64,000 bases of DNA, from positions 124,001 to 188,000 of the forward strand of contig NZ_BAKJ01000004.1 of assembly GCF_000614125.1 (NCBI RefSeq). Direction: 5' to 3'. The DNA is from Bacteroides rodentium JCM 16496 (lineage in GTDB: Bacteria; Bacteroidota; Bacteroidia; Bacteroidales; Bacteroidaceae). Of the stretch, positions 6,588 to 56,771 are shown in pieces. The notes below the pieces were generated by a model. That model was not told where the DNA came from. It searched no databases and saw only the letters and a list, made by a program, of their open reading frames with translations. Positions within the stretch are counted from its first letter, which is position 1, and each line of letters opens with the position of its first letter. A program made the position numbers and the translations under genes.

Positions 6588-7166
6588 CTACGATTTCAGC
6601 ATCTTCAATGTTATTGATTTCCCTTGAAGAGGAGTCCGTTGTACCCGGTGTTTTGGGACGGCGACGCGTAAACTTGAACCAGTTCAGCAGTTCCGAAGCC
6701 GCATAGACCAGACTGCTGATACCGATAATAATAAATGCCGTGGAGCGTACTCCCGTAGGATTGAACAGCGCAACCAAACCGGCAATCAGAATCAATACAG
6801 GCACCGCGTAAAAGCCATACGGCACCGGCATCCAGCGACGGGCAGCGGAAAGCGAGGCAATCTGTTGCACTCCTCCCATCACCAGGATAAATCCCAATAC
6901 AAATGTCAGCAAATCGGCAAAGAAGCCGGGCATGATAATCAGCCACAAGCCAAACAGCAGCTGCCCACCCCCTCGATAGGGAAGCGGCGGCGCATCTCCG
7001 TGCTCTGTGCAAAGTAGCCTATGATGCTGATGAGCGAAGGCACCAGGAAGATGACACCTATCGTAATGACAAGATAATCACCGGCCTGGTCGGGAAACAT
7101 CACCAGCACCAAACCTATAACCAGCGCACATATTGCACGCAAAAATGAGTAACTTAATCCTTTCAT
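6583..7166 (-). CDS. DUF308/HdeD-like membrane protein (frame break)
   Basis: Small polytopic inner-membrane protein of about 195 residues with roughly six hydrophobic segments (for example FLRAICALVIGLVLVMFP and LLTFVLGFILVMGG) in the DUF308 pattern. It ends in an acidic tail (NNIEDAEIVE). Near base 6960 one base is missing from the coding strand (agcctg read as agctg); restoring it joins FPIEGVGSLLFGLWLIIMPG. DUF308 proteins include the acid-stress protein HdeD, but function here is unknown. It is transcribed towards the peptidase gene. Confidence 0.75.
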
Positions 7167-7231
7167 GAGTTTATGTTTTTTTGCGAAGATACATCTTTAT
7201 CCGAATAACTCCGCACGAAAATCCCGAAAAA

Positions 7232-7339
7232 TCAGTTTACATTCAGCCAGGCATTCATATCTTCGGCCACAAAAAGCCAGTATAATAACAATAGCACAGC
7301 AATAACCACGCCTATGGCAACTAAATGTTTTCTATTCAT
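7232..7339 (-). CDS. Small single-span membrane protein, 35 residues
   Basis: Short ORF starting MNRKHLVAIGVVIAV, one hydrophobic span (residues 6-25, rich in V, I and L, ending in YWLFV), then a polar tail EDMNAWLNVN. The start is preceded by a purine-rich AAGAAAGGAAC. A positive N-terminus and one helix suggest an inner-membrane peptide with its N-terminus inside. I recognise no family. It sits between the DUF308 gene, on the same strand, and the divergent trp promoter. Confidence 0.6.
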   Translation of the reverse strand: MNRKHLVAIGVVIAVLLLLYWLFVAEDMNAWLNVN

Positions 7340-7443
7340 AGTTTGTTCCTTTCTTTTTTTTGAATGAATATTCGTTTTTACTACACCTATAAAAACAAGA
7401 TTTCAAGAAAAATGTTTTAATCCGGAAAAAAAGTCATATTTAT

Positions 7444-7474
7444 TTTGGCAGTTAAAACAAAGTGCTTATATTTG
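7444..7474 (+). promoter_or_regulatory. trp operon promoter
   Basis: TTTG at 7444-7447 and TATATTTG at 7467-7474, separated by 19 bp, match the Bacteroidetes -33/-7 consensus exactly. Transcription should start near 7480, about 100 nt before the leader peptide. Confidence 0.8.
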
Positions 7475-7581
7475 TCGCGAAAACGAAGACAGGCTGCACC
7501 TCAGCATAAAAAATGAACAAGTTCATTTTATTATACATTCGGTTTGCACTGTCTTTGCTCCCAATAAAACAAAAAAAGTCA

Positions 7582-7644
7582 ATGAAAACAATGTTAGTAA
7601 ATACATATTGGTGGTGGCACCCGTTACAACTCCGACAGTCGTAA
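7582..7644 (+). CDS. trpL: trp operon leader peptide
   Basis: A 20-codon ORF, MKTMLVNTYWWWHPLQLRQS, with three consecutive TGG codons at 7609-7617, followed 50 nt later by an intrinsic terminator and then trpB. Three adjacent Trp codons in a short leader ahead of trp genes is the signature of ribosome-mediated attenuation. Stalling at the Trp codons would leave CGACAG (7633-7638) free to pair with CTGTCG (7699-7704) in the 5' arm of the terminator and prevent its formation. A ribosome reaching the stop at 7642 would cover that segment and allow termination. The peptide is seen directly; the mechanism is inferred. Confidence 0.82.
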   Translation: MKTMLVNTYWWWHPLQLRQS

Positions 7645-7694
7645 GGGAGCAGCGCTCGTATGTATATGTGTAATATATGGTAAAAAATAAAAAG

Positions 7695-7726
7695 AGCCCT
7701 GTCGCACCAAGCGACGGGGCTTTTTT
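7695..7726 (+). terminator. trp attenuator terminator
   Basis: A 10-bp stem (AGCCCTGTCG with CGACGGGGCT, one G-U pair), 7-base loop CACCAAG, then six T. It lies between the leader peptide and trpB. The 5' arm has an alternative partner at 7633-7638, as expected for an attenuator. Confidence 0.85.
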
Positions 7727-7756
7727 CGTTTAAGCAATAATTCGTTTTGATTTCTG

Positions 7757-7785
7757 AAATAGTAAATCGTCAAATAGTAAATAAC
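7757..7785 (+). repeat. AT-rich TAGTAAAT leader repeat before trpB
   Basis: The AAATAGTAAATCGTCAAATAG-type repeat directly before the start codon. The same motif precedes PII, trpG, trpD, trpF and trpA, and appears in the KDG and uxaA region. Confidence 0.7.
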
Positions 7786-8989
7786 ATGATGAATTTCTTA
7801 GTTGACAAAGAAGGTTATTACGGAGAGTTCGGCGGGGCATACGTTCCCGAAATCCTCCACAAATGTGTAGAAGAGTTGCAGAATACTTACCTCCGGGTGC
7901 TGCAAAGTGAGGACTTCAAGCGTGAATACGACCAGTTGCTGCGCGACTACGTGGGACGCCCTTCCCCACTCTACCTGGCACACCGCTTGTCCGAGAAGTA
8001 CGGCTGCCGGATTTACCTCAAGCGTGAAGACCTGAACCACACCGGTGCCCACAAAATCAACAACAGCATCGGGCAGGTATTGCTGGCACGCCGCATGGGC
8101 AAGCGCCGCATCATCGCCGAAACCGGAGCCGGACAGCACGGCGTTGCCACAGCCACCGTCTGCGCCCTGATGAATATGGAGTGTATCGTCTACATGGGCA
8201 AGACCGACGTGGAACGCCAGCGCATCAATGTGGAGAAGATGAAGATGCTCGGCGCTACCGTCGTCCCCGTCACCAGCGGCAATATGACGTTGAAGGACGC
8301 CACCAACGAAGCCATCCGCGACTGGTGCTGCCATCCGGCAGACACCTACTACGTGATAGGTTCCACCGTCGGCCCGCATCCCTACCCCGACATGGTGGCA
8401 CGCCTGCAGTCCGTCATCAGCGAAGAAATCAGGAAACAGCTTCTTGAGCATGAAGGACGCAGCTGCCCCGATTACCTCATCGCCTGCGTAGGTGGAGGAA
8501 GCAATGCAGCCGGCACCATCTATCACTACGTCAACGACCCGCACGTGCAAATCGTCCTCGCCGAAGCCGGCGGAAAAGGCATTGAAACGGGAATGACAGC
8601 CGCCACCATCGCCCTCGGCAAGATGGGCATCATCCACGGCTCGCGCACCTACGTCATCCAGAACGAGGACGGACAGATAGAAGAACCCTATTCCATCTCT
8701 GCCGGACTGGACTATCCGCATCGGCCCCATGCACGCCAACCTTGCCAAGCAGAAACGTGCCGTCGTCCTCGCCGTCAATGATGACGAAGCCGTCCGGGCC
8801 GCCTACGAACTGACCCGGCTCGAAGGCATCATCCCCGCCCTGGAAAGCGCCCACGCACTGGGTGCGCTGGAGAAGATGAAGTTCAAGCCGACGGACGTGG
8901 TGGTGCTGACGGTGTCGGGACGGGGGGATAAGGATATGCAGACCTACAGCCTCTCCCCCGACCCCTCCCCCGTAGGGAGGGGAGGATGA
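7786..8989 (+). CDS. trpB: Tryptophan synthase beta subunit (frame break, repeat-derived tail)
   Basis: PLP enzyme joining indole and serine to tryptophan, about 401 residues. The PLP lysine is about residue 90 in [12 protein letters not shown], and the glycine-rich phosphate site is [10 protein letters not shown]. The start is [17 protein letters not shown] at 7786 or 7789. Near base 8718 two G are missing: restoring them (ccgggcatc for ccgcatc) gives [19 protein letters not shown], standard TrpB sequence. After the normal end (DKDMQTY) the frame reads through a GC-rich palindromic repeat and gains the tail [13 protein letters not shown], which is not TrpB sequence. First structural gene of the trp operon. 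Confidence 0.93.
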
Positions 8990-8990
8990 A
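8950..8990. repeat. GC-rich palindrome in the 3' end of trpB
   Basis: CTCCCCCGACCCCTCCCCCG followed by TAGGGAGGGGAGG, a near-palindrome related to the core of the R1 elements and to the repeat at 9365-9406. It encodes the last 13 residues of TrpB. Confidence 0.75.
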
Positions 8991-9326
8991 GTTACTCCGG
9001 GAATCTGATGAGATGGAAAGTTGCCATTCAAAGAAAAAGCCGCAAAGATGACGCGAACCGAACGTTATCAAGCTCGCTTGAATAGCTGAGGTGAAGCTTA
9101 CCTGTTATAAAAACAAACCTCTAAAGAATGCAGGACAAAATTTAAACAGGCTCTAAAAGAAAGCAGATAAAAAACTTAAAATCCCGTTGGCGGAATCAAC
9201 TGCTTTCATATCCCCCTCCTTAGAGGTATGCGCAGGCTTCATTCTGTTCTGTTTTTCGGTTTTTCCACATCATTTAATTCCGACAACAGGCTTTAAAAGG
9301 AAAATTTAAAAAGACTCTTATTTAAA
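8990..9326. other. Spacer between trpB and trpE
   Basis: About 340 bp without a credible ORF, RNA or promoter match. AT-rich in its second half, ending in runs of AAATTTAAAA before trpE. I see no conserved element beyond the repeat at its left edge. Confidence 0.5.
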
Positions 9327-10793
9327 ATGAAAACAAATATGAATACAAAAAACAATTCAGTAGTAACCTCCTCCCCCCTCCCTACGGGGGAGGGGTCGGG
9401 GGTGAGGCTTAGGACAGTCAGCCGCACCCTGCTCGGCGACCTGCATACGCCGGTGAGCACGTATCTGAAGGTGCGCGACATCTTTCCGCAGAGCGCACTA
9501 ATGGAGAGCTCCGACTATCATGGCAGCGAGAACAACCGCTCGTTCATCGCCCTGTGTCCGCTGGCAAGTGTCAGCATAGACCACGGCACGGCCATCTTCC
9601 GCCTGCCGGACGACAGCCGCGAAGAGCATCTCATCACCGATACATACCGGGTGGAGAATGCCTTGAACGATTTCCGCGCCCGCTTCCGCGTGGAGGGCGA
9701 ATACAGCAATTACTGCGGACTCTACGGATACACCTCCTTCAATGCTGTCCGCTACTTCGAGAATATACCCGTGAAGGACAGCCGCGAAGCTACCAACGAT
9801 GCACCGGACATGCTATACATATTATATAAGTACCTCATCGTCTTCAACGACTTCAAGAATGAGATGCTGCTCCTCGAGATGCTGGCGCCCGGCGAGACCA
9901 GCGGACTGGACCAGGTGCAGAAGGCCATCCATAACCGCAACTACACCGCCTACGATTTCCGCGCCATCGGCCCCACCACCTCCCCGCTTACGGACGAGGA
10001 GCACAAGGCGAATATCCGCCGGGGCATCGCCCACTGCCTGCGCGGCGACGTGTTCCAGATTGTCCTCTCCCGCCGGTTCGAGCAGCGTTTCACGGGCGAT
10101 GACTTCAAGCTCTACCGTGCCCTGCGCAGCATCAACCCTTCTCCCTATCTGTTCTATTTCGACTTCGGGGGCTTCCGCATTTTCGGCTCGTCGCCCGAAA
10201 CCCATTGCCGCATCGAAGGCCGCCATGCCTACATCGACCCCATTGCCGGAACCACGAAGCGTACCGGCGATGCAGAGCAGGACGCCCTCAATGCCCGATA
10301 CCTGCACGACGACCCCAAAGAGAACGCCGAACACGTGATGTTGGTGGACCTTGCCCGCAACGACCTCTCACGCAACTGCCACGATGTAAAGGTGGACTTC
10401 TATAAGGAGACGCAGTATTACAGCCATGTCATCCACCTCGTCAGCCGTGTCAGCGGAACGCTCCGCGAAGAGGCCGACCCCGTCAAGGCCTTCATCGACA
10501 CCTTTCCTGCCGGTACCCTGAGCGGCGCCCCCAAAGTACGCGCCATGCAACTCATCAGCCAGCTGGAACCGCACAACCGTGGAGCCTACGGCGGCTGCAT
10601 CGGTTTCATCGGACTGAACGGCTCGCTGAACCAGGCGATTACGATTCGTACTTTTGTCAGCCGCAACGGTCTCCTCTGGTTCCAGGCAGGCGGCGGCATC
10701 GTAGCCAAGAGCAACGACGAGTACGAACTGCAAGAGGTGAACAACAAGCTCGGCGCACTGAAAAAGGCGATTGAGATGGCGGAAAAAATATGA
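9327..10793 (+). CDS. trpE: Anthranilate synthase component I (repeat-derived N-terminus)
   Basis: Chorismate-utilising subunit that makes anthranilate with TrpG, 488 residues, intact frame. The catalytic core shows DPIAGTKRTGDAEQD, LVDLARNDLSR and PAGTLSGAPKVRAM. Tryptophan feedback probably acts at the LMESSDYHGSENN segment. The recognisable TrpE sequence begins at TVSRTLLGDLHTPVSTYLKV (from about residue 30). Before it lie MKTNMNTKNNSVV and [15 protein letters not shown], the latter encoded by a GC-rich palindromic repeat (9365-9406). No better internal start is obvious, so either the repeat is translated or initiation uses a non-ATG codon. Confidence 0.95.
   Translation: MKTNMNTKNNSVVTSSPLPTGEGSGVRLRTVSRTLLGDLHTPVSTYLKVRDIFPQSALMESSDYHGSENNRSFIALCPLASVSIDHGTAIFRLPDDSREEHLITDTYRVENALNDFRARFRVEGEYSNYCGLYGYTSFNAVRYFENIPVKDSREATNDAPDMLYILYKYLIVFNDFKNEMLLLEMLAPGETSGLDQVQKAIHNRNYTAYDFRAIGPTTSPLTDEEHKANIRRGIAHCLRGDVFQIVLSRRFEQRFTGDDFKLYRALRSINPSPYLFYFDFGGFRIFGSSPETHCRIEGRHAYIDPIAGTTKRTGDAEQDALNARYLHDDPKENAEHVMLVDLARNDLSRNCHDVKVDFYKETQYYSHVIHLVSRVSGTLREEADPVKAFIDTFPAGTLSGAPKVRAMQLISQLEPHNRGAYGGCIGFIGLNGSLNQAITIRTFVSRNGLLWFQAGGGIVAKSNDEYELQEVNNKLGALKKAIEMAEKI
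9365..9406. repeat. GC-rich palindrome within the 5' end of trpE
   Basis: CCTCCTCCCCCCTCCCTACG followed by GGGGAGGGGTCGGGGG. It is the inverse counterpart of the repeat at 8950-8990 and encodes [13 protein letters not shown] near the TrpE start. Confidence 0.75.
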
Positions 10794-10797
10794 GTTC

Positions 10798-10950
10798 ATT
10801 TACTATTTACAATGTACAATGTACAATTTGCCATGCTGGCGTACAATTGCAGTCAGTCCAAATTGTACATTGTACATTGTAAATAGTAAATTGAATGTAT
10901 GATTTGCCATGCAGCGTACATTGCGCAGCCAAATAGTACATTGTATAGTG
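10798..10950. repeat. R2 AT-rich palindromic repeat after trpE
   Basis: Bases 10799-10829 and 10860-10890 are a perfect 31-bp inverted repeat (TTTACTATTTACAATGTACA...). A second partial copy with CATGCAGCGTACATTGCGCA follows (10905-10945). The 485-bp trpE-trpG spacer holds only this repeat, R1 copy B and another R2 unit; no gene is visible. Confidence 0.85.
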
Positions 10951-11190
10951 TATAGTGGAACAGAAATGATTTGCGAAAAAAAGAGGTGAAATAGAGAGTA
11001 ACTCAATTCCCCTCCTCCGGGGAGGAGGGGTGCCCAACGGGCGGGGTGGTAGGGAGCATAAGGTAATGAAAAATAGTACAGTGCGTATCGCTACCACCTC
11101 CCCCTACGGGTACTCACCCCCTCCACCTCCCCGGAGGAGGAGAAGTAAGTTACCCCGTATTTTTTCGCAAACCAATTCTGTTCGACTATA
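10951..11190. repeat. R1 hairpin element, copy B (long form)
   Basis: A 240-bp copy of the R1 family, TATAGTGGAACAGAAATG to TTCTGTTCGACTATA, with an enlarged core of several GC-rich palindromes (CCCTCCTCCGGGGAGGAGGG and CTCCCCCTACGGG). The core matches that of copy F at 62939. Confidence 0.85.
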
Positions 11191-11278
11191 AATAGTAAAT
11201 TGAATGTACGATTTGCCATGCAGCGTACATTGCGCAGCCAAATAGTAAATAGTAAATCATCAAATAGTAAATAAATCG
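11191..11278. repeat. R2 repeat before trpG
   Basis: AAATAGTAAATTGAATGTAC, then CATGCAGCGTACATTGCGCA, then three TAGTAAAT units ending at the trpG start codon. Confidence 0.75.
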
Positions 11279-11910
11279 ATGAAAACAGTTATCATAGACA
11301 ATTACGACTCCTTCACCTACAACCTTGCCCATCTGGTGAAAGAGCTCGGCGCAGAAACGGATGTGCTGCGCAACGATAAATTCCGGCTCGAAGAACTGGA
11401 GCCATACGATAAAATCATCCTCTCACCCGGCCCCGGTGTCCCCGAGGAAGCCGGACTGCTGCAGGATGTCATCCGCACCTATGCCGGACGGAAACCCATA
11501 CTTGGCGTCTGCCTGGCGAACAAGCCATCGGACAAGTGTTTGGCGGAAAGCTGGTCAATCTGGAAGAGGTATTCCATGGGGTACAGACGGAGATAAGGAT
11601 GAAGGGGGAAGGATTAGGGATGAGGGAGGAAGGATTAGGGATTAAGGGGAAGGATTATGAAGGTATTTCTCTTGAAGAAGACTATATCTTCTGCGGTTTA
11701 CCCCATAGGATTCCCGTTGGACGATACCACTCCTGGGTAGTGGATACGAAGGAGTTTCCCGACGAACTTGCCATTACCGCCATCAGCCCCGAAGGACAAA
11801 TCATGGCGCTGAAACATCGGGAATATGACATACACGGCATCCAGTTCCACCCGGAATCCGTACTGACACCCGACGGAAAAACAATCGTAAAAAACTGGCT
11901 TTTCAAATGA
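11279..11910 (+). CDS. trpG: Anthranilate synthase component II (frame break, repeat insertion)
   Basis: Class I glutamine amidotransferase subunit supplying ammonia to TrpE, about 210 residues. The nucleophile is Cys78 in LGVCLGEQAIG (read after repair), with the His-Glu pair in GIQFHPESVLTP. Near base 11516 one G is missing (ctgggcgaa read as ctggcgaa); restoring it gives CLGEQAIGQVFGGKLVNLEE. Between FHGVQTE and EDYIFCGLPHR sits an extra stretch of about 25 residues, rich in G, K, E and R (MKGEGLGMREEGLGIKGK), encoded by GGATTAGGGA-type repeats like those in the spacers at 39.0-39.3 kb. TrpG homologues have no such insertion that I know of. Confidence 0.92.
11594..11665 (+). repeat. GGATTAGGGA repeats inside trpG
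   Basis: Imperfect tandem GAAGGATTAGGGATGAGGG and GAAGGATTAGGGATTAAGGG units, in frame within trpG. The same unit flanks R1 copy E near 39.1 kb, in both orientations. Confidence 0.75.
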
Positions 11911-11921
11911 GGCGTTTCATC

Positions 11922-12020
11922 GTCCGGAATGCCACACTTCATCAAGCCAAATGCCACACTTTGTCCCTACTGACATGTGGCATTACGGACGGTAACATGT
12001 GGCATTCCGAAAGCAAATGA
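11922..12020. repeat. R3 array, copy 1 (AATGCCACA / TGTGGCATT)
   Basis: Two forward units (GGAATGCCACACTTCATCAAG and CCAAATGCCACACTTTGTCC) followed by two inverted units (ACATGTGGCATTACGG and ACATGTGGCATTCCG). The array can fold into a large hairpin just after trpG. Other arrays lie at 35.2 and 58.7 kb. Confidence 0.8.
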
Positions 12021-12049
12021 ACGGCATTTCAAACGAGAGCAGAGTAACC

Positions 12050-12113
12050 CAAATAGTAAATCGTAAATCGTCAAATAGTAAATAGAATCGATTGTCAAAT
12101 AGTAAATAAATAG
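12050..12113 (+). repeat. TAGTAAAT leader repeats before trpD
   Basis: Four TAGTAAAT/GTAAATCG units in about 60 bases, ending 4 bases before the trpD start codon. Confidence 0.7.
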
Positions 12114-13109
12114 ATGAAAGCAATATTATCCCGTCTCTTCAACCACGAAGAGCTTACGTCGGAGGAAACCAGACAAATCCTCCTCAACATCACCAAGGAA
12201 ATGTATCCTGAGGCGCAGATAGCAGCCCTGCTCACTGCCTTCCAGATGCGAAGCATCACTGTGGACGAGCTTATCGGTTTCCGCGAAGCACTGATGGAAA
12301 CACGCCTCCCCATCGACTTCGCCCCCTATCGCCCCATCGACATTGTGGGTACGGGAGGCGACGGAAAGAACACCTTCAACATCTCCACCTGCGCTTGCTT
12401 CGTGGTGGCGGGAGCCGGCTACAAGGTTGCCAAGCACGGCAACTACGGAGCCACTTCCGTGAGCGGAGCCAGCAATGTCATCGAGCAGCACGGCGTACGC
12501 TTCACCAACAACCCCGACACGCTGAAACGCAGCATGGAGGAGTGCAACATCGCCTACCTTCATGCCCAGCTTTTCAATCCGGCGATGAAGTTTGTCGGTC
12601 CCGTACGCAAGACGCTGGGAGTGCGCACCTTGTTCAATCTGCTCGGCCCGTTGGTGAATCCATGCTGCCCGGCATACCAGCTGCTCGGTGTGGCAGACCT
12701 CTCGCAGATGCGCCTGTATACCAACGTATTCTATAAGCTCGGCATTGACTTTGCCGTGGTCAACAGCCTCGACAGCTACGACGAAATCTCCCTGACGGAC
12801 GAGTTCAAGGTGATGACCCGCAACTACGAGCGCATCTACCGTCCGCAGGCTCTCGGCTTCAAGGATGCCCGTCCCGAAGAACTCTTCGGCGGCGCATGCA
12901 AGGAAGATGCCGCCCGCATCTTCGACAATATCCTTACGGGGCATGCCACACCTGCACAAACGCAATGCGTCATTGTCAACGCCGCCTTTGCCATCCAGGT
13001 GATGGAGCCGCAGAAAGAGATTGAAGAGTGCATCGCCATCGCACGCGAATCGCTGGATAGCGGACGGGCGCTGGCGACACTGAAAAAATTTATCGAGATT
13101 AATAAATGA
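12114..13109 (+). CDS. trpD: Anthranilate phosphoribosyltransferase
   Basis: Transfers the phosphoribosyl group of PRPP to anthranilate, 331 residues, the usual length. It has the PRPP and glycine-loop motifs DIVGTGGDGKNTFNIST and KHGNYGATSVSGASNV, and the anthranilate site around NPAMKFVGPVRKTLGVRT. Not fused to trpG. Intact frame. Its stop is 4 bases before the trpC start, so the two are translationally close. Confidence 0.96.
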   Translation: MKAILSRLFNHEELTSEETRQILLNITKEMYPEAQIAALLTAFQMRSITVDELIGFREALMETRLPIDFAPYRPIDIVGTGGDGKNTFNISTCACFVVAGAGYKVAKHGNYGATSVSGASNVIEQHGVRFTNNPDTLKRSMEECNIAYLHAQLFNPAMKFVGPVRKTLGVRTLFNLLGPLVNPCCPAYQLLGVADLSQMRLYTNVFYKLGIDFAVVNSLDSYDEISLTDEFKVMTRNYERIYRPQALGFKDARPEELFGGACKEDAARIFDNILTGHATPAQTQCVIVNAAFAIQVMEPQKEIEECIAIARESLDSGRALATLKKFIEINK

Positions 13110-13113
13110 TGCA

Positions 13114-13977
13114 ATGAAAGATATACTGTCCGAAATCATCGCCCATAAGCAAACAGAGATTGAACTGCAGAAGCAAACCGTCTCTCTGGAACAACTACAG
13201 GAGCAAGCCGGAACCATTATCCGGGAGAATGCGGCCCACCGCCGCAGCATGAAGCAGGCCCTTGCCGCTTCTTCTACAGGAATCATCTCCGAGTTCAAAC
13301 GCCGTTCCCCCTCTAAAGGCTGGATAAACGAGGCTGCCCGGGCAGAGGAAATACCCGCTGCCTACGAAACCTCCGGCGCTGCCGCCCTCTCCATCCTGAC
13401 GGACGGGAAGTTCTTCGGCGGTACGCTGCGCGACATCCGCACGGCCCGTCCGCTGGTCCACATCCCCATTCTGCGCAAAGACTTCATCATCGACGAGTAC
13501 CAGCTTCTGCAAGCCTGCATCGTAGGTGCCGACGCCGTATTGCTCATTGCCTCCTGCCTCAGTCCGGAGCAGTGCAGCACCCTCACCGCCCAAGCCCACG
13601 AACTCGGGCTGGAGGTATTGCTCGAAATCCACAGCCCTTCGGAACTCTCCTATATAAATAAGGAGGTCGACATGGTAGGTGTCAACAACCGCAACCTCGG
13701 CTCCTTCGTCACCGATGTGGAAAACTCCTTCCGGATAGCCCGGCAACTGCGCGAAGCCACCCACGGACCGGCATCCCCGCTCCTTGTCTCCGAAAGCGGC
13801 ATCTCCGCCCCCGAGACCATCTGCCGCCTGCGTGCCGCCGGCTTCCGCGGCTTCCTCATCGGCGAAACCTTCATGAAAACAGCCACCCCGGGCGAAACCC
13901 TGAACAAGTTCATCCAAGACAGTCTCTCAATCAATAATTATAGTCAAACAGAAATGACCTGCGAAGAAAAGAGGTGA
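13114..13977 (+). CDS. trpC: Indole-3-glycerol phosphate synthase (repeat-derived C-terminus)
   Basis: Converts CdRP to indole-3-glycerol phosphate. A TIM barrel of about 275 residues with IISEFKRRSPSKGWI (catalytic Lys), ILRKDFIIDEYQ, VGVNNRNLGSF and LVSESGIS. Not fused to TrpF. After the normal end (FIQDSLSINN) the frame runs into R1 copy C and gains the tail YSQTEMTCEEKR before the stop. The identical tail occurs on NrdG at 62977. Confidence 0.95.
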   Translation: MKDILSEIIAHKQTEIELQKQTVSLEQLQEQAGTIIRENAAHRRSMKQALAASSTGIISEFKRRSPSKGWINEAARAEEIPAAYETSGAAALSILTDGKFFGGTLRDIRTARPLVHIPILRKDFIIDEYQLLQACIVGADAVLLIASCLSPEQCSTLTAQAHELGLEVLLEIHSPSELSYINKEVDMVGVNNRNLGSFVTDVENSFRIARQLREATHGPASPLLVSESGISAPETICRLRAAGFRGFLIGETFMKTATPGETLNKFIQDSLSINNYSQTEMTCEEKR

Positions 13978-14065
13978 AATAGAGAGTAACTTACTTCCCC
14001 TCCTCCCCGGAGGAGGAGAAGTAAGTTACTCCGTATTTTTCGCAAATCATTTCTGTTCTACTATA
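13939..14065. repeat. R1 hairpin element, copy C
   Basis: TATAGTCAAACAGAAATGAC to TTCTGTTCTACTATA with core CCCCTCCTCCCCGGAGGAGG. Its left end encodes the last 12 residues of TrpC. Confidence 0.85.
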
Positions 14066-14085
14066 AAAGTTGAAAGTTGATAATT

Positions 14086-14162
14086 GTAAATACCAAAGTC
14101 TCTCATACAGCGTTACATCGCGCAGCCAAATTGTAAATAGTAAATTGTAAATCGTAAATAAA
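14086..14162 (+). repeat. R2 repeat before trpF
   Basis: CATACAGCGTTACATCGCGC core, then GTAAATAGTAAATTGTAAAT units running up to the trpF start. Confidence 0.7.
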
Positions 14163-14785
14163 ATGTCTCCTCTCATCAAAGTATGCGGAATGACCGAAGC
14201 AGAAAACATCCGCAATGTAGAACTGCAAGGTGTAGATATGATTGGTTTCATCTTCTACCCCAAATCTCCCCGTTGTCTGTGCCAGATGCCCGGGTATCTG
14301 CCAGCCTGCGCCAAGCGCGTCGGCGTCTTTGTCAACGAAAGTAAGGAAAACATCCTGATGTATACCGACCGTTTCGGCCTGGACTACATCCAGCTGCATG
14401 GCAATGAAGCCCCCGAGTACTGCCGTTCCCTGCGCAATGCAGGCCTGCACCTCATCAAGCTTTCTCCATCTTGCTGCCCAAGGACCTGCTTTCCGTATCT
14501 GCCTACAATGGTCTGTGCGACTACTACCTCTTCGACACCAAGACCCCGCAGTACGGCGGTTCCGGCAACCAGTTCGACTGGAACCTCCTTCACCGCTACA
14601 ACGGTCCCACCCCCTTCCTGCTCAGCGGTGGCATCAACCCCTACAGCGTAAAAGCCCTCCGGGAGTTCCGCCATCCCTATCTCGCAGGAATCGACATCAA
14701 CAGCCGTTTCGAGACGGCACCGGGAATAAAGGATGTGGAACGCATCTCAAACTTCCTGAAAGAACTGAAGGGAGGTACGATTTGA
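14163..14785 (+). CDS. trpF: Phosphoribosylanthranilate isomerase (frame break)
   Basis: Amadori isomerase of the trp pathway, TIM barrel of about 208 residues. It starts MSPLIKVCGMTEAENI (catalytic Cys8) and has DMIGFIFYPKSPR, DYIQLHGNEAPEYC, FDTKTPQYGGSGNQFDW (catalytic Asp) and FLLSGGINP. Near base 14459 one G is missing (aaggctttc read as aagctttc); restoring it gives LIKAFSILLPKDLLSVSAYN. No fusion to TrpC. Confidence 0.93.
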
Positions 14786-14934
14786 CTATTTACTATTTAC
14801 CATGTACAATGTACAATTTGCCATGCGGCGTACATTGCGCAGCCAAATAGTAAATTGTAAAATTGTAAATCATCCCATGCAGCATATATTGCGCAGCCAA
14901 ATAGTAAATAGTAAATTGTAAAATTGTAAATAGT
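14786..14934. repeat. Two R2 units between trpF and trpA
   Basis: TTTACTATTTACCATGTACA..., CATGCGGCGTACATTGCGCA, then a second unit with CATGCAGCATATATTGCGCA. TAGTAAATTGTAAA repeats end at the trpA start. Confidence 0.8.
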
Positions 14935-15712
14935 ATGTTGAACCGCATTAACCAACTTTTCCAGGACAGCCCCAAGAATCTGCTGTCCATTTACTTTTGT
15001 GCAGGCTGTCCCAACCTCGACGGCACTGCCGACGTTATCCGTGCCCTCGAAAGAAACGGGGTCAGCATGATTGAAATCGGAATTCCGTTCAGTGACCCCA
15101 TGGCCGACGGCATTGTCATCCAGAATGCCGCCACCCGCGCCCTGCGTGGCGGCATGTCCCTCCGTCTGCTTTTCGAACAGTTGCGCGACATCCGTCGCGA
15201 TGTCCGCATCCCGCTTGTCCTTATGGGATACCTCAATCCCATCATGCAGTTCGGCTTCGAAGCTTCTGCCAGAAGTGCGTGGAATGCGGCATCGACGGCG
15301 TCATCATTCCCGACCTCCCCTTCCGCGACTACGAAGAGAGCTACAAAGCCATCGCCTCGAAGTATGACATCCGTGTCATCATGCTCATTACCCCCGAAAC
15401 CAGCGAAGCCCGCGTCCGCGAGATAGATGCCCACACCGACGGATTCATCTATCTGGTGTCCAGTGCCGCTACCACCGGTGCCCAGAAAGACTTCGACACC
15501 CGGAAGCAAGCCTACTTCAAGAAGATAGAGGATATGAACCTGCGCAATCCACGCATGGTAGCTTCGGCATCAGCAACAAGCAGACATTCGATGCCGCCTG
15601 CGCCCACTCATCCGGTGCCATCATTGGCAGCCGCTTCGTCACGCTGCTCAACGAGAAGGAAGGAGATGCGGAAAAGGCTATCAGGCAGTTGAAGGAAGAT
15701 TTGAAACAGTGA
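14935..15712 (+). CDS. trpA: Tryptophan synthase alpha subunit (two frame breaks)
   Basis: Cleaves indole-3-glycerol phosphate to indole for TrpB, about 259 residues after repair. The catalytic Glu is in VSMIEIGIPFSDPMADG, which also holds the Asp, and IYLVSSAATTGAQ forms the phosphate loop. First break near 15265 (gctttctgc read as gcttctgc): repair gives GFEAFCQKCVECGIDGVI. Second near 15561 (gtaggcttc read as gtagcttc): repair gives NPRMVGFGISNKQTFDAAC. The end, LKEDLKQ, is at 15712. Last trp gene; a strong terminator follows. Confidence 0.92.
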
Positions 15713-27907: not shown

Positions 27908-29113
27908 ATGAACGATTTTTTTTCCATATTCAATCCCGACTGGTGGATGGACGAGAACAACAATGCCTTGCAAATGGCAGATGCCATTCTTTTTCTGTTA
28001 CTGGCCATCCCCGTAGCGTATTTGTTTATTTACGCATTGGCTTCTTTGCGAAAATACAAGAATCCTTATCCGCCCGCCAAAAAGCAGCACCGGTTCCTGG
28101 TCCTCTTCGTCGTATTGAGAAATGGTAAAGAAGTAATAGAGTCCATCAATCATTTCCTCGATACACAAATCTATCCGAAAGACAAGTATGACATCGCAGT
28201 GGCCGCCACGCAGTTGCCCGAAGAAGATTTGGTGACACTGCTCCAGATGCCGGTCAATATCGTTGTTCCCGACAAAGAACACTGTACAAAGATATATGCC
28301 ATACAGCAAGTCATGGAGCGTTATTCTCCCCATGAGTATGATGCCATTACCATATTCAATTCCGACAATAAGATAGTTCCCAATGCGCTGGAGCTTTTCA
28401 ACAATGCATACTACTCCGGATGCGATGCTATCCAGGCACACCGCATGACCGAGAACCTGAATACGAACATTGCCATACTTAATGCCACCAGTGAGGAAAT
28501 CAACAACCACTTATTCCGCAAAGCCCATACCATACTCGGCTTTTCGTCTGCCCTCATAGGCTCCGGCATGATGTTTGACTTTGAGATGTTCCAGAAAATC
28601 ACTCCACGATTGTCGGGGAGCGACTTGGCAAAGGCCACCGAAATGGAACTTCTAAAGGAGAACATATACACCGAATATATGGAAGAAATCGTATGCTACT
28701 GTAAAAAGACGGATGACACATCAGGCTACAGCAGGGAACGCCAGCGCTGGTTGGGTTCGCAATACCGCAGTTCCCTATTGGCATTAGGACAGTTTCCGAT
28801 AGCATTTTTACAAGGAAAATGGGATTTATGCGAGAAGCTGTTCCAATGGTTGCTTCCATCCCGTTTTCTGCTCATTGTGTACATCACGGTGTGTGCCGTC
28901 GTAATGACATTGCTGGAATGGCCACTGTCCATCAAGTGGTATGCCCTCTTGGCCACTTTATTCATCACTTTCCTAATGGCTATGCCCGAAGGGGAAATCA
29001 GCCGCAGGTTCCGTCGCGCTTTCTGGTCCCTGCCGATATTGGTATTCACTTCTTTCATGAGCCACATCACAAGAATATTCAGAAGAAGGAAGAAAGGAAA
29101 TGCTGTAAAATGA
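27908..29113 (+). CDS. Membrane glycosyltransferase family 2
   Basis: Processive-type GT2 enzyme of 401 residues. An N-terminal membrane helix (ADAILFLLLAIPVAYLFIYAL), a GT-A domain with ITIFNSDNKIVPNAL in place of the usual DADN motif, a QRQRW-like acceptor motif (SRERQRWLGSQYRS), and two C-terminal helices. The gene at 48294 encodes the same architecture with a canonical LVLDADNVIP. The first Asp of the metal-binding motif is replaced by Asn here, so activity may be altered. It overlaps the next gene by 4 bases. Confidence 0.85.
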   Translation: MNDFFSIFNPDWWMDENNNALQMADAILFLLLAIPVAYLFIYALASLRKYKNPYPPAKKQHRFLVLFVVLRNGKEVIESINHFLDTQIYPKDKYDIAVAATQLPEEDLVTLLQMPVNIVVPDKEHCTKIYAIQQVMERYSPHEYDAITIFNSDNKIVPNALELFNNAYYSGCDAIQAHRMTENLNTNIAILNATSEEINNHLFRKAHTILGFSSALIGSGMMFDFEMFQKITPRLSGSDLAKATEMELLKENIYTEYMEEIVCYCKKTDDTSGYSRERQRWLGSQYRSSLLALGQFPIAFLQGKWDLCEKLFQWLLPSRFLLIVYITVCAVVMTLLEWPLSIKWYALLATLFITFLMAMPEGEISRRFRRAFWSLPILVFTSFMSHITRIFRRRKKGNAVK

Positions 29114-30231
29114 GAATAGCCATCGAAGCCCAACGCATTTTCCGCAATGACAAGCATGGGATGGACTTTGTCATCCTGGAGACATTGAAAGAGCTGCAAA
29201 AGCGGAAAGACGGTAATGAATACTATGTGCTCGTTGCCCCAGGCGAAGACCGCTGCCTGCAAGAATCGGAGAATCTCCATATCGTTGAGCTGCGATGCCC
29301 CACTTACCCATTGTGGGAACAGATAGCATTGCCCCGCGCAGTCCGAAGGCTGAAAGCGGACTTGCTGCACTGCACCTCGAACACGGCTCCGCTATGGTGT
29401 CCCGTTCCCCTGGTGCTGACACTTCATGACATTATCTATCTGGAACCGCGCCAGCATCGCAGTCCCTCATTCTATCAGGAGATGGGATGGCACTACCGCC
29501 GCCTGGTTGTTCCCCGCATATTGAAAAAGGCAAAGAAAATCATCACTGTCTCACATTTTGAGTGCACCCGCATACGTACGGCGCTACACCTCCCGGAAAC
29601 ATCCGTCACGGCTGTATACAACGGCTATAGCAGCTACTTTGCCCCCCAAATGCCTCTCGACGAAAGTATCGTACGGAAGTATATACCGCACCCGGACTTT
29701 CTTTTCTTTCTGGGAAATACAGACCCCAAAAAGAATGCGGCACGGACCTTGAAAGCATACTCCCTGTATCTGCAGGCATCCGGAGCGAAACGCCCCTTGC
29801 TCATTGCCGACTTGAAAGAAGAATATATCGACGTGCTTCTCCAGCAGGAAGGAATCACCGGAATCAAGAAACATCTGTACTATCCGGGCTACATCAGCAA
29901 CAAGGATTTAGCGACCCTTTATAATGCTGCATTCGCATTCCTCTATCCTTCCCTGCGGGAGAGTTTCGGCATCCCCATGCTGGAAGCCATGGCTTGCGGC
30001 ACTCCCATAGTGACGAGCAATGTTTCGGCAATGCCCGAAGTTGCCGGCAAAGGCGCCATCCTGGTCAACCCCCAGGAACCGCAGGAAATAGCGGATGCCC
30101 TGTTGCGTCTGGAGGATGATGCAACATTCTATCAGCAGCAGGTAGCTTACAGTCTGGAACGTGTAAAATCATTTTCCTGGCAACATACTGCGCAAGAGTA
30201 TGTAAATATATATCAAAGTATTCATGATTAA
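29110..30231 (+). CDS. Glycosyltransferase family 4
   Basis: GT-B enzyme of 373 residues. ATG 29110 overlaps the previous stop (ATGA), which fixes the start; the frame is open further upstream, but only as a shadow of the preceding gene. N-terminus MRIAIEAQRIFRNDKHGMDF; the nucleotide-sugar part shows DFLFFLGNTDPKKN, HLYYPGYISNKDLA and the E-x7-E motif in SLRESFGIPMLEAMACGTP. No membrane segment. Part of the exopolysaccharide operon. Confidence 0.88.
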   Translation: MRIAIEAQRIFRNDKHGMDFVILETLKELQKRKDGNEYYVLVAPGEDRCLQESENLHIVELRCPTYPLWEQIALPRAVRRLKADLLHCTSNTAPLWCPVPLVLTLHDIIYLEPRQHRSPSFYQEMGWHYRRLVVPRILKKAKKIITVSHFECTRIRTALHLPETSVTAVYNGYSSYFAPQMPLDESIVRKYIPHPDFLFFLGNTDPKKNAARTLKAYSLYLQASGAKRPLLIADLKEEYIDVLLQQEGITGIKKHLYYPGYISNKDLATLYNAAFAFLYPSLRESFGIPMLEAMACGTPIVTSNVSAMPEVAGKGAILVNPQEPQEIADALLRLEDDATFYQQQVAYSLERVKSFSWQHTAQEYVNIYQSIHD

Positions 30232-55440: not shown

Positions 55441-56771
55441 ATGTCAACAACAACCGATACAACCCCTAAACCCAAAGGCGGCTGGTGGGCACTCAGCCCG
55501 TTGGCGGTATTCCTTTGCCTCTACTTGGTGACCTCGCTCCTGGTGAACGACTTCTATAAAGTCCCCATCACGGTAGCCTTCCTCGCCTCGTCCTGCTATG
55601 CCATCGCCATCACGCGCGGCCTGAATCTGGAACAGCGCATCTACCTGTTTTCCGTGGGCGCCAGCAACAAAAACATCATGCTGATGGTATGGATATTCAT
55701 CCTTGCAGGAGCATTTGCCCAAAGTGCCAAGCAGATGGGCGCCATTGATGCGACCGTAAATCTGACCCTGCATATACTGCCGGACAACCTGCTGCTGGCG
55801 GGCATCTTCATCGCCGCCTGCTTCATCTCCCTCTCGATAGGAACAAGCGTAGGAACTATCGTCGCACTGACCCCCGTAGCCGTGGGACTGGCGGAAAAGA
55901 CGGGCATCGACCTGCCTACATGGTTGCCATCGTGGTGGGAGGCTCGTTCTTCGGAGACAATCTTTCCTTCATATCCGACACCACCATTGCATCGACCAAG
56001 ACGCAGGACTGCGTGATGAGGGACAAGTTCCGCGTCAACTTCATGATTGTAGTCCCCGCAGCGCTTGTCGTGCTGGGCATCTACATCTTTCAAGGACTGT
56101 CCGTCTCCGCCCCGCCCCAAGTGCAGACCATCGAGTGGATAAAGGTAATCCCCTACCTCATCGTGCTGGGCACGGCCGTAGCAGGTGTCAACGTCATGCT
56201 GGTACTGCTGCTGGGCATCCTCTCTACTGGAATTATCGGTATCTATACCGGCACCACCTTCTTCGACTGGTTCGGAGCTATGGGGACGGGCATCACCGGC
56301 ATGGGCGAGCTCATCATCATCACCCTGCTGGCCGGAGGCATGCTCGAAACCATCCGCTACAACGGCGGCATCGACTTCATCATCTCCCGGCTGACCCGCC
56401 ACGTCAGCGGCAAGCGGGGAGCCGAATTCAGCATCGCCGCCCTGGTCAGCATCGCCAATCTGTGTACCGCCAACAACACCATTGCCATCATCACCACCGG
56501 CCCCATAGCCAAGGACATCGCCATCCGCTTCCACCTGGACCGCCGGAAAACAGCCAGCATACTGGACACCTTCTCATGCCTCATGCAAGGCATCATCCCC
56601 TACGGAGCACAAATGCTGATAGCCGCCGGACTTGCCGGCATCTCCCCCATCAGCATCATCGGAAACCTATACTACCCCTTCTGCATGGGAGCATGCGCCA
56701 TACTCGCCATTCTGCTGAGATACCCCAGGAAATACTCGGGAGAAAAAAACATTCCTCATGCCAACAAATAA
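55441..56771 (+). CDS. nhaC: NhaC family Na+/H+ antiporter (frame break)
   Basis: Inner-membrane antiporter of about 444 residues with ten to twelve helices. It starts MSTTTDTTPKPKGGWWALSP. Family motifs are SIGTSVGTIVALTPVAVGLA and GGSFFGDNLSFISDTTIAST, the likely ion site. One C is missing near 55916 (ctgccctac read as ctgcctac); repair joins TGIDLPYMVAIVVGGSFFGD. It stands alone between its own promoter and rpsP. Ion specificity is not known. Confidence 0.9.

Follow-up and report, generated by a model that had tools for sequence, protein, structure and literature searches.

Bacteroid-trp RNA was described by Weinberg et al. 2010 (PMC2864571), whose Table 1 marks it 'y' as an RNA, 'y' as cis-regulatory and 'n' as a switch, and it is held in Rfam as RF01692 under the name 'Bacteroidete tryptophan peptide leader RNA'. 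Passages of PMC6414381 describe the RNA as structured similarly to the E. coli leader and place it upstream of the Flavobacterium psychrophilum trp operon, and passages of PMC9723704 give clues for leader-peptide attenuation upstream of amino-acid operons in that species. Given the Rfam name and these passages, trp attenuation in the phylum is no new idea.

The window, the whole 64-kb stretch of Bacteroides rodentium JCM 16496 DNA analysed here, carries a leader of this family ahead of a trp operon. The features of the region, with the strand where one is assigned, are:

7444-7447 (+), TTTG, −33 box of the native promoter, by motif; sigma-ABfr consensus, kept in the close relatives L008, L010 and L011
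7467-7474 (+), TATATTTG, −7 box of the native promoter, by motif; 19 nt after TTTG
7479-7559 (+), interspersed repeat of ~81 bp in the promoter-leader interval, from repeat matches in the genome itself
7510-7529 (+), central palindrome of the repeat, AAAATGAAC-AA-GTTCATTTT; paired changes in 60 copies
7550-7557 (+), the repeat's own −7 position, here TGTCTTTG; TAnnTTTG in 59/60 copies
7562-7703, RF01692 Bacteroid-trp match by covariance model, 101.8 bits
7582-7644 (+), leader peptide ORF MKTMLVNTYWWWHPLQLRQS, 20 codons; ATG 7582, stop UAA 7642-7644
7601-7665 (+), 1:2 hairpin, the RF01692 core, with the Trp codons in its 5′ arm; predicted fold
7609-7617 (+), three Trp codons TGGTGGTGG, read directly; predicted regulatory
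7633-7638, CGACAG before the stop codon, read directly
7638-7645 (+), segment b GUCGUAAG, covering the stop codon; predicted to pair with 7708-7715 in the antiterminator
7650-7657 (+), region 2 CAGCGCUC; predicted to pair with 7694-7701 in the antiterminator
7690-7726 (+), intrinsic terminator (3:4), 16-bp stem with a U run at its end; fold
7694-7701 (+), region 3 GAGCCCUG, part of the terminator 5′ arm; pairing statistics and folds
7699-7704, CTGTCG in the terminator, read directly
7708-7715 (+), segment c CAAGCGAC, terminator loop and start of the 3′ arm; pairs with b at 6/8 positions in the window copy
7786-8950 (+), trpB, first gene of trpBEGDCFA; ATG 7786, frame break near 8718 in the assembly
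9411-15710 (+), trpE, trpG, trpD, trpC, trpF and trpA; breaks in trpG, trpF and trpA

The match to RF01692 passes the curated cut-off (101.8 against 49 bits, E = 1.7e-12; cmscan, Rfam 15) and spans model positions 1-131 of 131. The window shares with the family its covariance model, the location ahead of a trp gene (here trpB), the 1:2 hairpin and a leader ORF rich in Trp codons (MKTMLVNTYWWWHPLQLRQS), and differs from its kin in the 81-bp repeat interposed between promoter and leader. The structure line of RF01692 shows no helix other than the 1:2 hairpin and stops within the terminator 5′ arm. Several elements named in a preliminary description of this DNA were confirmed, namely the 20-codon ORF with three consecutive TGG codons, the gene order trpB-E-G-D-C-F-A, and an intrinsic terminator before trpB. 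The terminator was not listed by a simple terminator scan, though it is evident in the fold: bases 7694-7730 fold at −22.7 kcal/mol (z −6.3), and the leader as a whole (7481-7730) folds better than 200 of 200 shuffles (z −5.4).

RF01692 matches at E <= 0.001 were found in 29 of 61 relatives' genomes by whole-genome search, and in 42 of 395 genomes drawn phylum-wide, the window's own genome being counted in both. Seventy-one family loci were studied, 30 from relatives (the window's own included) and 41 others; five of the 71 score below the Rfam cut-off. Conservation of the Trp codons across genomes, proposed in the preliminary description as a check, was found in all of them: each has a short ORF with a run of Trp codons (three in 64 loci, two in 7), a conservation that is partly by construction because the RF01692 consensus itself includes UGG letters. 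The first match within 1450 nt was a trp gene in 71/71 (trpE 35, trpB 33, trpD 2, trpG 1). One genome, G025, has two RF01692 leaders (L022 and L030), the nearest match being trpG for one and trpB for the other. Control of the leader by a different regulator, such as a T-box or other riboswitch, is scarcely credible: at E <= 0.1 three other Rfam families gave weak matches far below their cut-offs (for example RF04312, 'trpB ncRNA motif', 28.3 of 59 bits), whereas only RF01692 passes its cut-off anywhere in the window (Rfam 15) and the Trp-codon run is universal among the loci. The attenuator is a conserved, already known kind of device.

Pairing of the antiterminator

Pairing counts were made in 68 of the 71 loci, of which 65 are distinct; L024, L068 and L077, in which the ORF end is off the family frame, were excluded. 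In each of the 65 distinct loci, the locus's own duplex energy was compared with that of permuted segments. At least 6 pairs of the 1:2 hairpin were present in 67 of 68 loci, and all 68 had 6 or more pairs in the terminator.

The preliminary description had assigned the antiterminator to CGACAG (7633-7638) and CTGTCG (7699-7704). The letters are as described, their complementarity is exact in the window and its closest relatives, and the pairing belongs to the minimum free energy fold when the ribosome is stalled on the third Trp codon or the next codon and the 3′ end lies at 7705-7709. Across the 65 loci, however, own duplexes were no better than permuted ones (−3.48 against −3.63, z +0.93, p 0.82), and the CGACAG segment varies among several relatives (for example CAATGAG, CCTAGAG, CAAAAG, CAAAGAG) while the terminator retains CTGTC. 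As the match within loci is no better than that between loci, CGACAG:CTGTCG was rejected as a conserved antiterminator, and we think it very unlikely that this pair serves as the antiterminator. For the same reason the argument that the distance from the Trp codons to CGACAG fits a stalled ribosome must be redone; masking would come instead from a ribosome at the stop codon. The attenuation reading itself, which agrees with the RF01692 match and is usual for the family, stood without the antiterminator pairing first named for it.

Two other pairings emerged. Region 2, which follows the stop codon, paired with the terminator 5′ arm at −7.66 against −6.27 for permuted segments (z −6.4), and segment b, which covers the stop codon, paired with segment c in the loop and 3′ arm at −10.29 against −8.59 (z −7.3). 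Both pairings held in the Bacteroides-like set (29 loci) and in the phylum set (36 loci; p 0.012 for 2:3). Six combinations were scored altogether, the others giving z −4.8 (b with the 5′ arm) and −2.3 (the pre-stop segment with c), both again better than permuted, and −0.35 (the post-stop segment with c). An anchored count, with b fixed at the stop codon and c at the terminator fold, found pairing in 465 of the 544 b:c cells of the 68 loci; six slid versions gave 126-275. The middle base of the stop codon forms A-U (UAA) in 25 loci, G-C (UGA) in 32 and G-U in 1, and is unpaired in 10; the terminator mirrors the difference between UAA and UGA groups in 57 of 68 loci. The window and its close relatives L008, L010 and L011 are among the 10 unpaired loci (A.A), and b:c in the window contains two A.A mismatches, leaving 6 of 8 positions paired.

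The search for compensatory changes that the preliminary description had recommended therefore went against CGACAG:CTGTCG, and the paired changes were found in 2:3 and b:c, which together make up a predicted antiterminator that excludes both the 1:2 hairpin and the terminator. The support from these alignments for b:c and 2:3 is strong, short of formal proof, because the pairings were picked after viewing the same sequences, the permutation treats loci without regard to relatedness, and the UAA/UGA split runs mostly along clades. The b:c plus 2:3 antiterminator proposed here is absent from the RF01692 structure line, and is predicted to include the stop codon of the leader itself.

Predicted states of the leader RNA

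The window RNA was folded unconstrained from the ribosome edge, set at the A-site codon plus 15, to each of seven 3′ ends. With the ribosome stalled on the first or second Trp codon, 2:3 was complete (7/7 pairs) at all five of the 3′ ends in the range 7701-7717; a stall on the third gave 7/7 pairs at 7701, 7713 and 7717, with CGACAG:CTGTCG as the minimum at 7705 and 7709. For a stall on any of the three, b:c (6/8) joined 2:3 at the 3′ end 7717. A ribosome at the stop codon left neither 2:3 nor b:c, and the terminator folded from 7717 on; with the ribosome absent, the 1:2 hairpin and the terminator formed. At the last ends, 7721 and 7728, the terminator was the lower-energy fold in every case, even with a stalled ribosome, so that antitermination must depend on timing.

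At least 6 antiterminator pairs formed at some 3′ end of the stalled RNA in 68 of 68 loci, and at least 10 in 65 of 68, against 38 of 204 when the leader segment was letter-shuffled. Free RNA also reached at least 6 such pairs at some 3′ end in 25 of the 68 loci (the phylum-wide set accounts for 21), and default termination may thus not be universal. RNA with the ribosome at the stop codon did so in 5 of 68, in what is a near-trivial test, the masked bases being removed.

These folds suggest a mechanism in which the place where a ribosome stops, set by the three Trp codons, would decide between antiterminator pairing and a free terminator. When tryptophan is scarce, the ribosome would stall at 7609-7617 and open the 1:2 hairpin; region 2 (7650-7657) would pair with the terminator 5′ arm (7694-7701) once this is made, and segment b (7638-7645) would then zip onto the loop and 3′ arm (7708-7715) to complete a single long antiterminator that likely lets transcription proceed. 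When tryptophan is plentiful, the ribosome would reach the stop codon at 7642-7644, inside b. A ribosome covers ~12 nt beyond a stop codon in the account given in part of PMC4833913, and shielding of this extent would cover both b and region 2, which begins at 7650, so that only the terminator could form; by its position, the stop codon is placed to mask the antiterminator. If translation is absent, the 1:2 hairpin would sequester b and region 2 and the terminator would form. The 1:2 hairpin with the regulatory codons in its 5′ arm, and the intrinsic terminator between the leader ORF and the first gene, are the arrangement expected of an attenuator. The letters, conservation, pairing statistics and folds were computed here; the footprint, kinetics and tryptophan response of the leader we infer.

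Ribosome-mediated attenuation, already the usual interpretation for the RF01692 family, appears on these grounds to be the best reading of the trp leader. It is highly probable that this is an RF01692 leader in which the Trp codons choose, by ribosome position, between the predicted b:c/2:3 antiterminator and the terminator. E. coli trpL has two Trp codons; the window has three. The operon order and the first gene also differ from those of E. coli trp, and the predicted window antiterminator, unlike that of trpL, uses the stop codon and extends into the terminator 3′ arm. The predicted working is otherwise that of trpL, with a stalled ribosome and 1:2, 2:3 and 3:4 alternatives (PMC6414381, in part). 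The pairing likely at work can now be written out for each base, with the same bases predicted to serve as stop codon and antiterminator, and could be tested by a few changes in Bacteroides.

The trp promoter and its repeat insertion

The sigma-ABfr consensus, as presented in part of PMC7366714, is TTTG / TAnnTTTG. Boxes of this Bacteroides type lie upstream of the leader (TTTG at 7444-7447, 19 nt, TATATTTG at 7467-7474). The consensus promoter claimed in the preliminary description was not upheld as one of E. coli type: a scan of 7000-8000 gave 3 such sites against 2.5 expected, no better than shuffles. Of the 71 family leaders, 67 have a TAnnTTTG no more than 45 nt from the leader ATG; in the window the distance is 107 nt. 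The preliminary description had overlooked the 81-bp repeat at 7479-7559; the window is the only one of the 71 family leaders with the repeat in the 400 nt upstream.

The insertion at trp is real. Among 158 genus genomes the repeat is present at trp in three: the window's own (G000), G571 and G497, the last being B. muris (ex Afrizal et al. 2022). The match is 99% over 181 bp in G571, a single-contig genome of 4.6 Mb, and 94% identical in G497, and the repeat is missing from the same trp site in L006, L008, L010 and L011. The repeat's own box at trp reads TGTCTTTG in the window and G571, and TATATTTG in G497, where it is identical to the native box.

With TGTCTTTG in place of the repeat's own −7 box, transcription of trp in this genome likely begins near 7480 from the native promoter, and a repeat hairpin of ~80 nt would then stand at the leader 5′ end. 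Bases 7481-7583, which include this hairpin, fold at −21.2 kcal/mol, and the computed attenuator fold is identical with and without the repeat extension. Alternatively, trp transcription could start from the repeat's own −7 box, with the native promoter a leftover. TAnnTTTG at the 3′ end in 59 of 60 repeat copies, the closeness of same-strand ORFs (53 of 60 copies have one starting no more than 100 nt further on, frequently at 16-28 nt, whereas only 14 have one that near on the other flank) and TATATTTG at the repeat's own box position in G497 speak for such a start, but the box reads TGTCTTTG in both the window and G571, and the window's is the sole departure among the 60 copies (G571 lies outside the 60), which makes this improbable. 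For the window and G571 we infer trp transcription from the native promoter and a leader RNA that bears the repeat hairpin; the box-less repeat would then be a permanent 5′ extension of the RNA regulator.

The coding frames of the operon are broken in the assembly. Net losses of 1-2 nt interrupt trpB (8718), trpG (11515), trpF (14457) and, twice, trpA (15263 and 15561), that is, four of the seven trp genes, and either the strain is losing the pathway or the assembly contains indel errors. If the operon is decaying in this strain, the leader would be a relic, intact but with no working pathway to control. Five short losses across four genes would fit decay, and neither a second trpA nor a second close trpB was found in the assembly, which is rated 85.85% complete, a TrpB-like protein being only 31% identical. 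Against decay, the same insertion accompanies seven open trp frames in both G497 and G571 (92-97% identical in the aligned operon pieces), five short losses in a 148-contig assembly could be sequence errors, and the leader itself is intact; we regard a relic as possible, though on the unlikely side. Elsewhere in the window, overlapping same-strand ORFs at 27908-30231 and at 55441-56771 may each be one split gene, so frame breaks may extend beyond the trp operon. The ORF list also indicates other repeated-looking DNA in the trp intergenic stretches at about 8990-9330, 10790-11280, 13990-14160 and 14660-14930, among them palindromic runs that resemble TTTACAATTTACAATT and a unit that reads as 11 protein letters.

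An ATG inside the trp repeat copy is in frame with the leader peptide and opens a 43-codon ORF at 7513-7644 (MNKFILLYIRFALSLLPIKQKKSMKTMLV...). Openings resembling MNxFILFCIRFALSL continue into longer ORFs at L034, L038, L041 and L042, and such openings are a possible cause of wrong N-terminus annotation.

Copies and placement of the repeat

The genome of the window contains 28 repeat matches at E <= 1, of which 12, the trp copy included, are near full length and 85-100% identical. Matches at E <= 1e-6 occur in 19 of 60 genus genomes, its own included. Exact-pattern matches were found in B. oleiciplenus, B. cellulosilyticus, B. muris, B. clarus, B. gallinarum, B. fluxus, B. timonensis, B. salyersiae and one uncultured Bacteroides, and in one record labelled uncultured Prevotellaceae. 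On plasmids the repeat gave no match at E <= 1e-5. Sixty near-full copies from 9 genomes were compared, 12 from the window's own genome and 48 in 40 regions chosen by hand from the near-full matches in the genus genomes, and they are not all independent, some being the same locus in sister species and some tandem.

An exact TAnnTTTG lies within 22 nt upstream of 46 of the 60 copies, ending 0-6 nt before the repeat, against a background of 249 in 18252 windows of the same loci; in L134 and L138, which are among the other 14 copies, the box straddles the repeat edge as drawn. The repeat carries its own 3′-terminal TAnnTTTG in 59 of 60 copies, the exception being the trp copy with TGTCTTTG. Same-strand ORFs of at least 50 aa start within 100 nt after the repeat in 53 of 60 copies and on the other side in 14 of 60; within 400 nt these counts are 59 and 51 of 60. 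Two pairs of the palindrome change on both sides among the 60 copies with pairing kept (GC 44/AU 15 and AU 45/GC 12), and the consensus fold of the repeat is weak overall (−1.6 kcal/mol, 10 pairs). At four chosen loci, in alignments judged by eye, the relatives compared (3-4 each) are element-free and show just one box.

Of the 46 copies in which an exact box lies upstream, 45 read TATCTTTG at their own box and all 46 have GCAY before it, whereas the surroundings of the upstream boxes vary; this difference suggests that the own box belongs to the element. The box could also have arisen by target-site duplication or conversion, as 37 of the 46 upstream boxes also read TATCTTTG and in B. muris the native and own boxes at trp both read TATATTTG, but the constant TATCTTTG/GCAY context led us to judge duplication less likely.

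Mobile promoters (a concept set out in part of PMC8049555), REPINs and MITEs are, like this repeat, short, repeated and palindromic, with a promoter-like box before genes and element-free sites in relatives. The 28 matches and the four chosen loci agree with such an element, and the sequences place an apparent own −7 box oriented to the next gene in the copies generally, the trp copy excepted. Unlike them, the repeat is mostly found immediately behind a −7 box that is already there, which doubles the box and extends the 5′ leader. A REPIN moved by a Y1/REP-type transposase was rejected, since Y1_Tnp (PF01797) was not found in G000, the assembly rated 85.85% complete. An Rfam identity for the repeat was likewise rejected: in five loci nothing matched at its coordinates at E <= 0.5, the matches there to RF01692, FopS, GibS, BTnc231, TarB and isrN all lying outside the repeat. 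No description of the repeat was found in the literature searched, which took in few subscription papers and no supplements, so it may be in print.

Tandem copies are present at L115, L116, L147 and L151. At L131, L139, L144 and L150, two copies in opposite orientation lie ~100 nt apart, each facing outward to an ORF, and look as if placed at divergent promoters. Matches to the FopS sRNA above the Rfam cut-off lie ~200 nt from repeat copies at L113 (1061-1127) and L147 (1059-1125), apparently the same neighbourhood in two species.

We hold it a little better than an even chance that in Bacteroides ~81-bp palindromic elements land just downstream of sigma-ABfr −7 boxes, on or close to the start of transcription, and bring a box of their own, doubling the promoter and adding a 5′ hairpin, and that one of them entered the trp attenuator whose stop codon is in the antiterminator, its box surviving in B. 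muris but not in the window or G571. What is newest in these findings is the repeat with its placement; the attenuator itself is ordinary. The trp operon offers a before/after comparison of repeat insertion between sister species and, if the placement rule holds, such insertions would be a simple route to duplicate and rewire Bacteroides promoters genome-wide.
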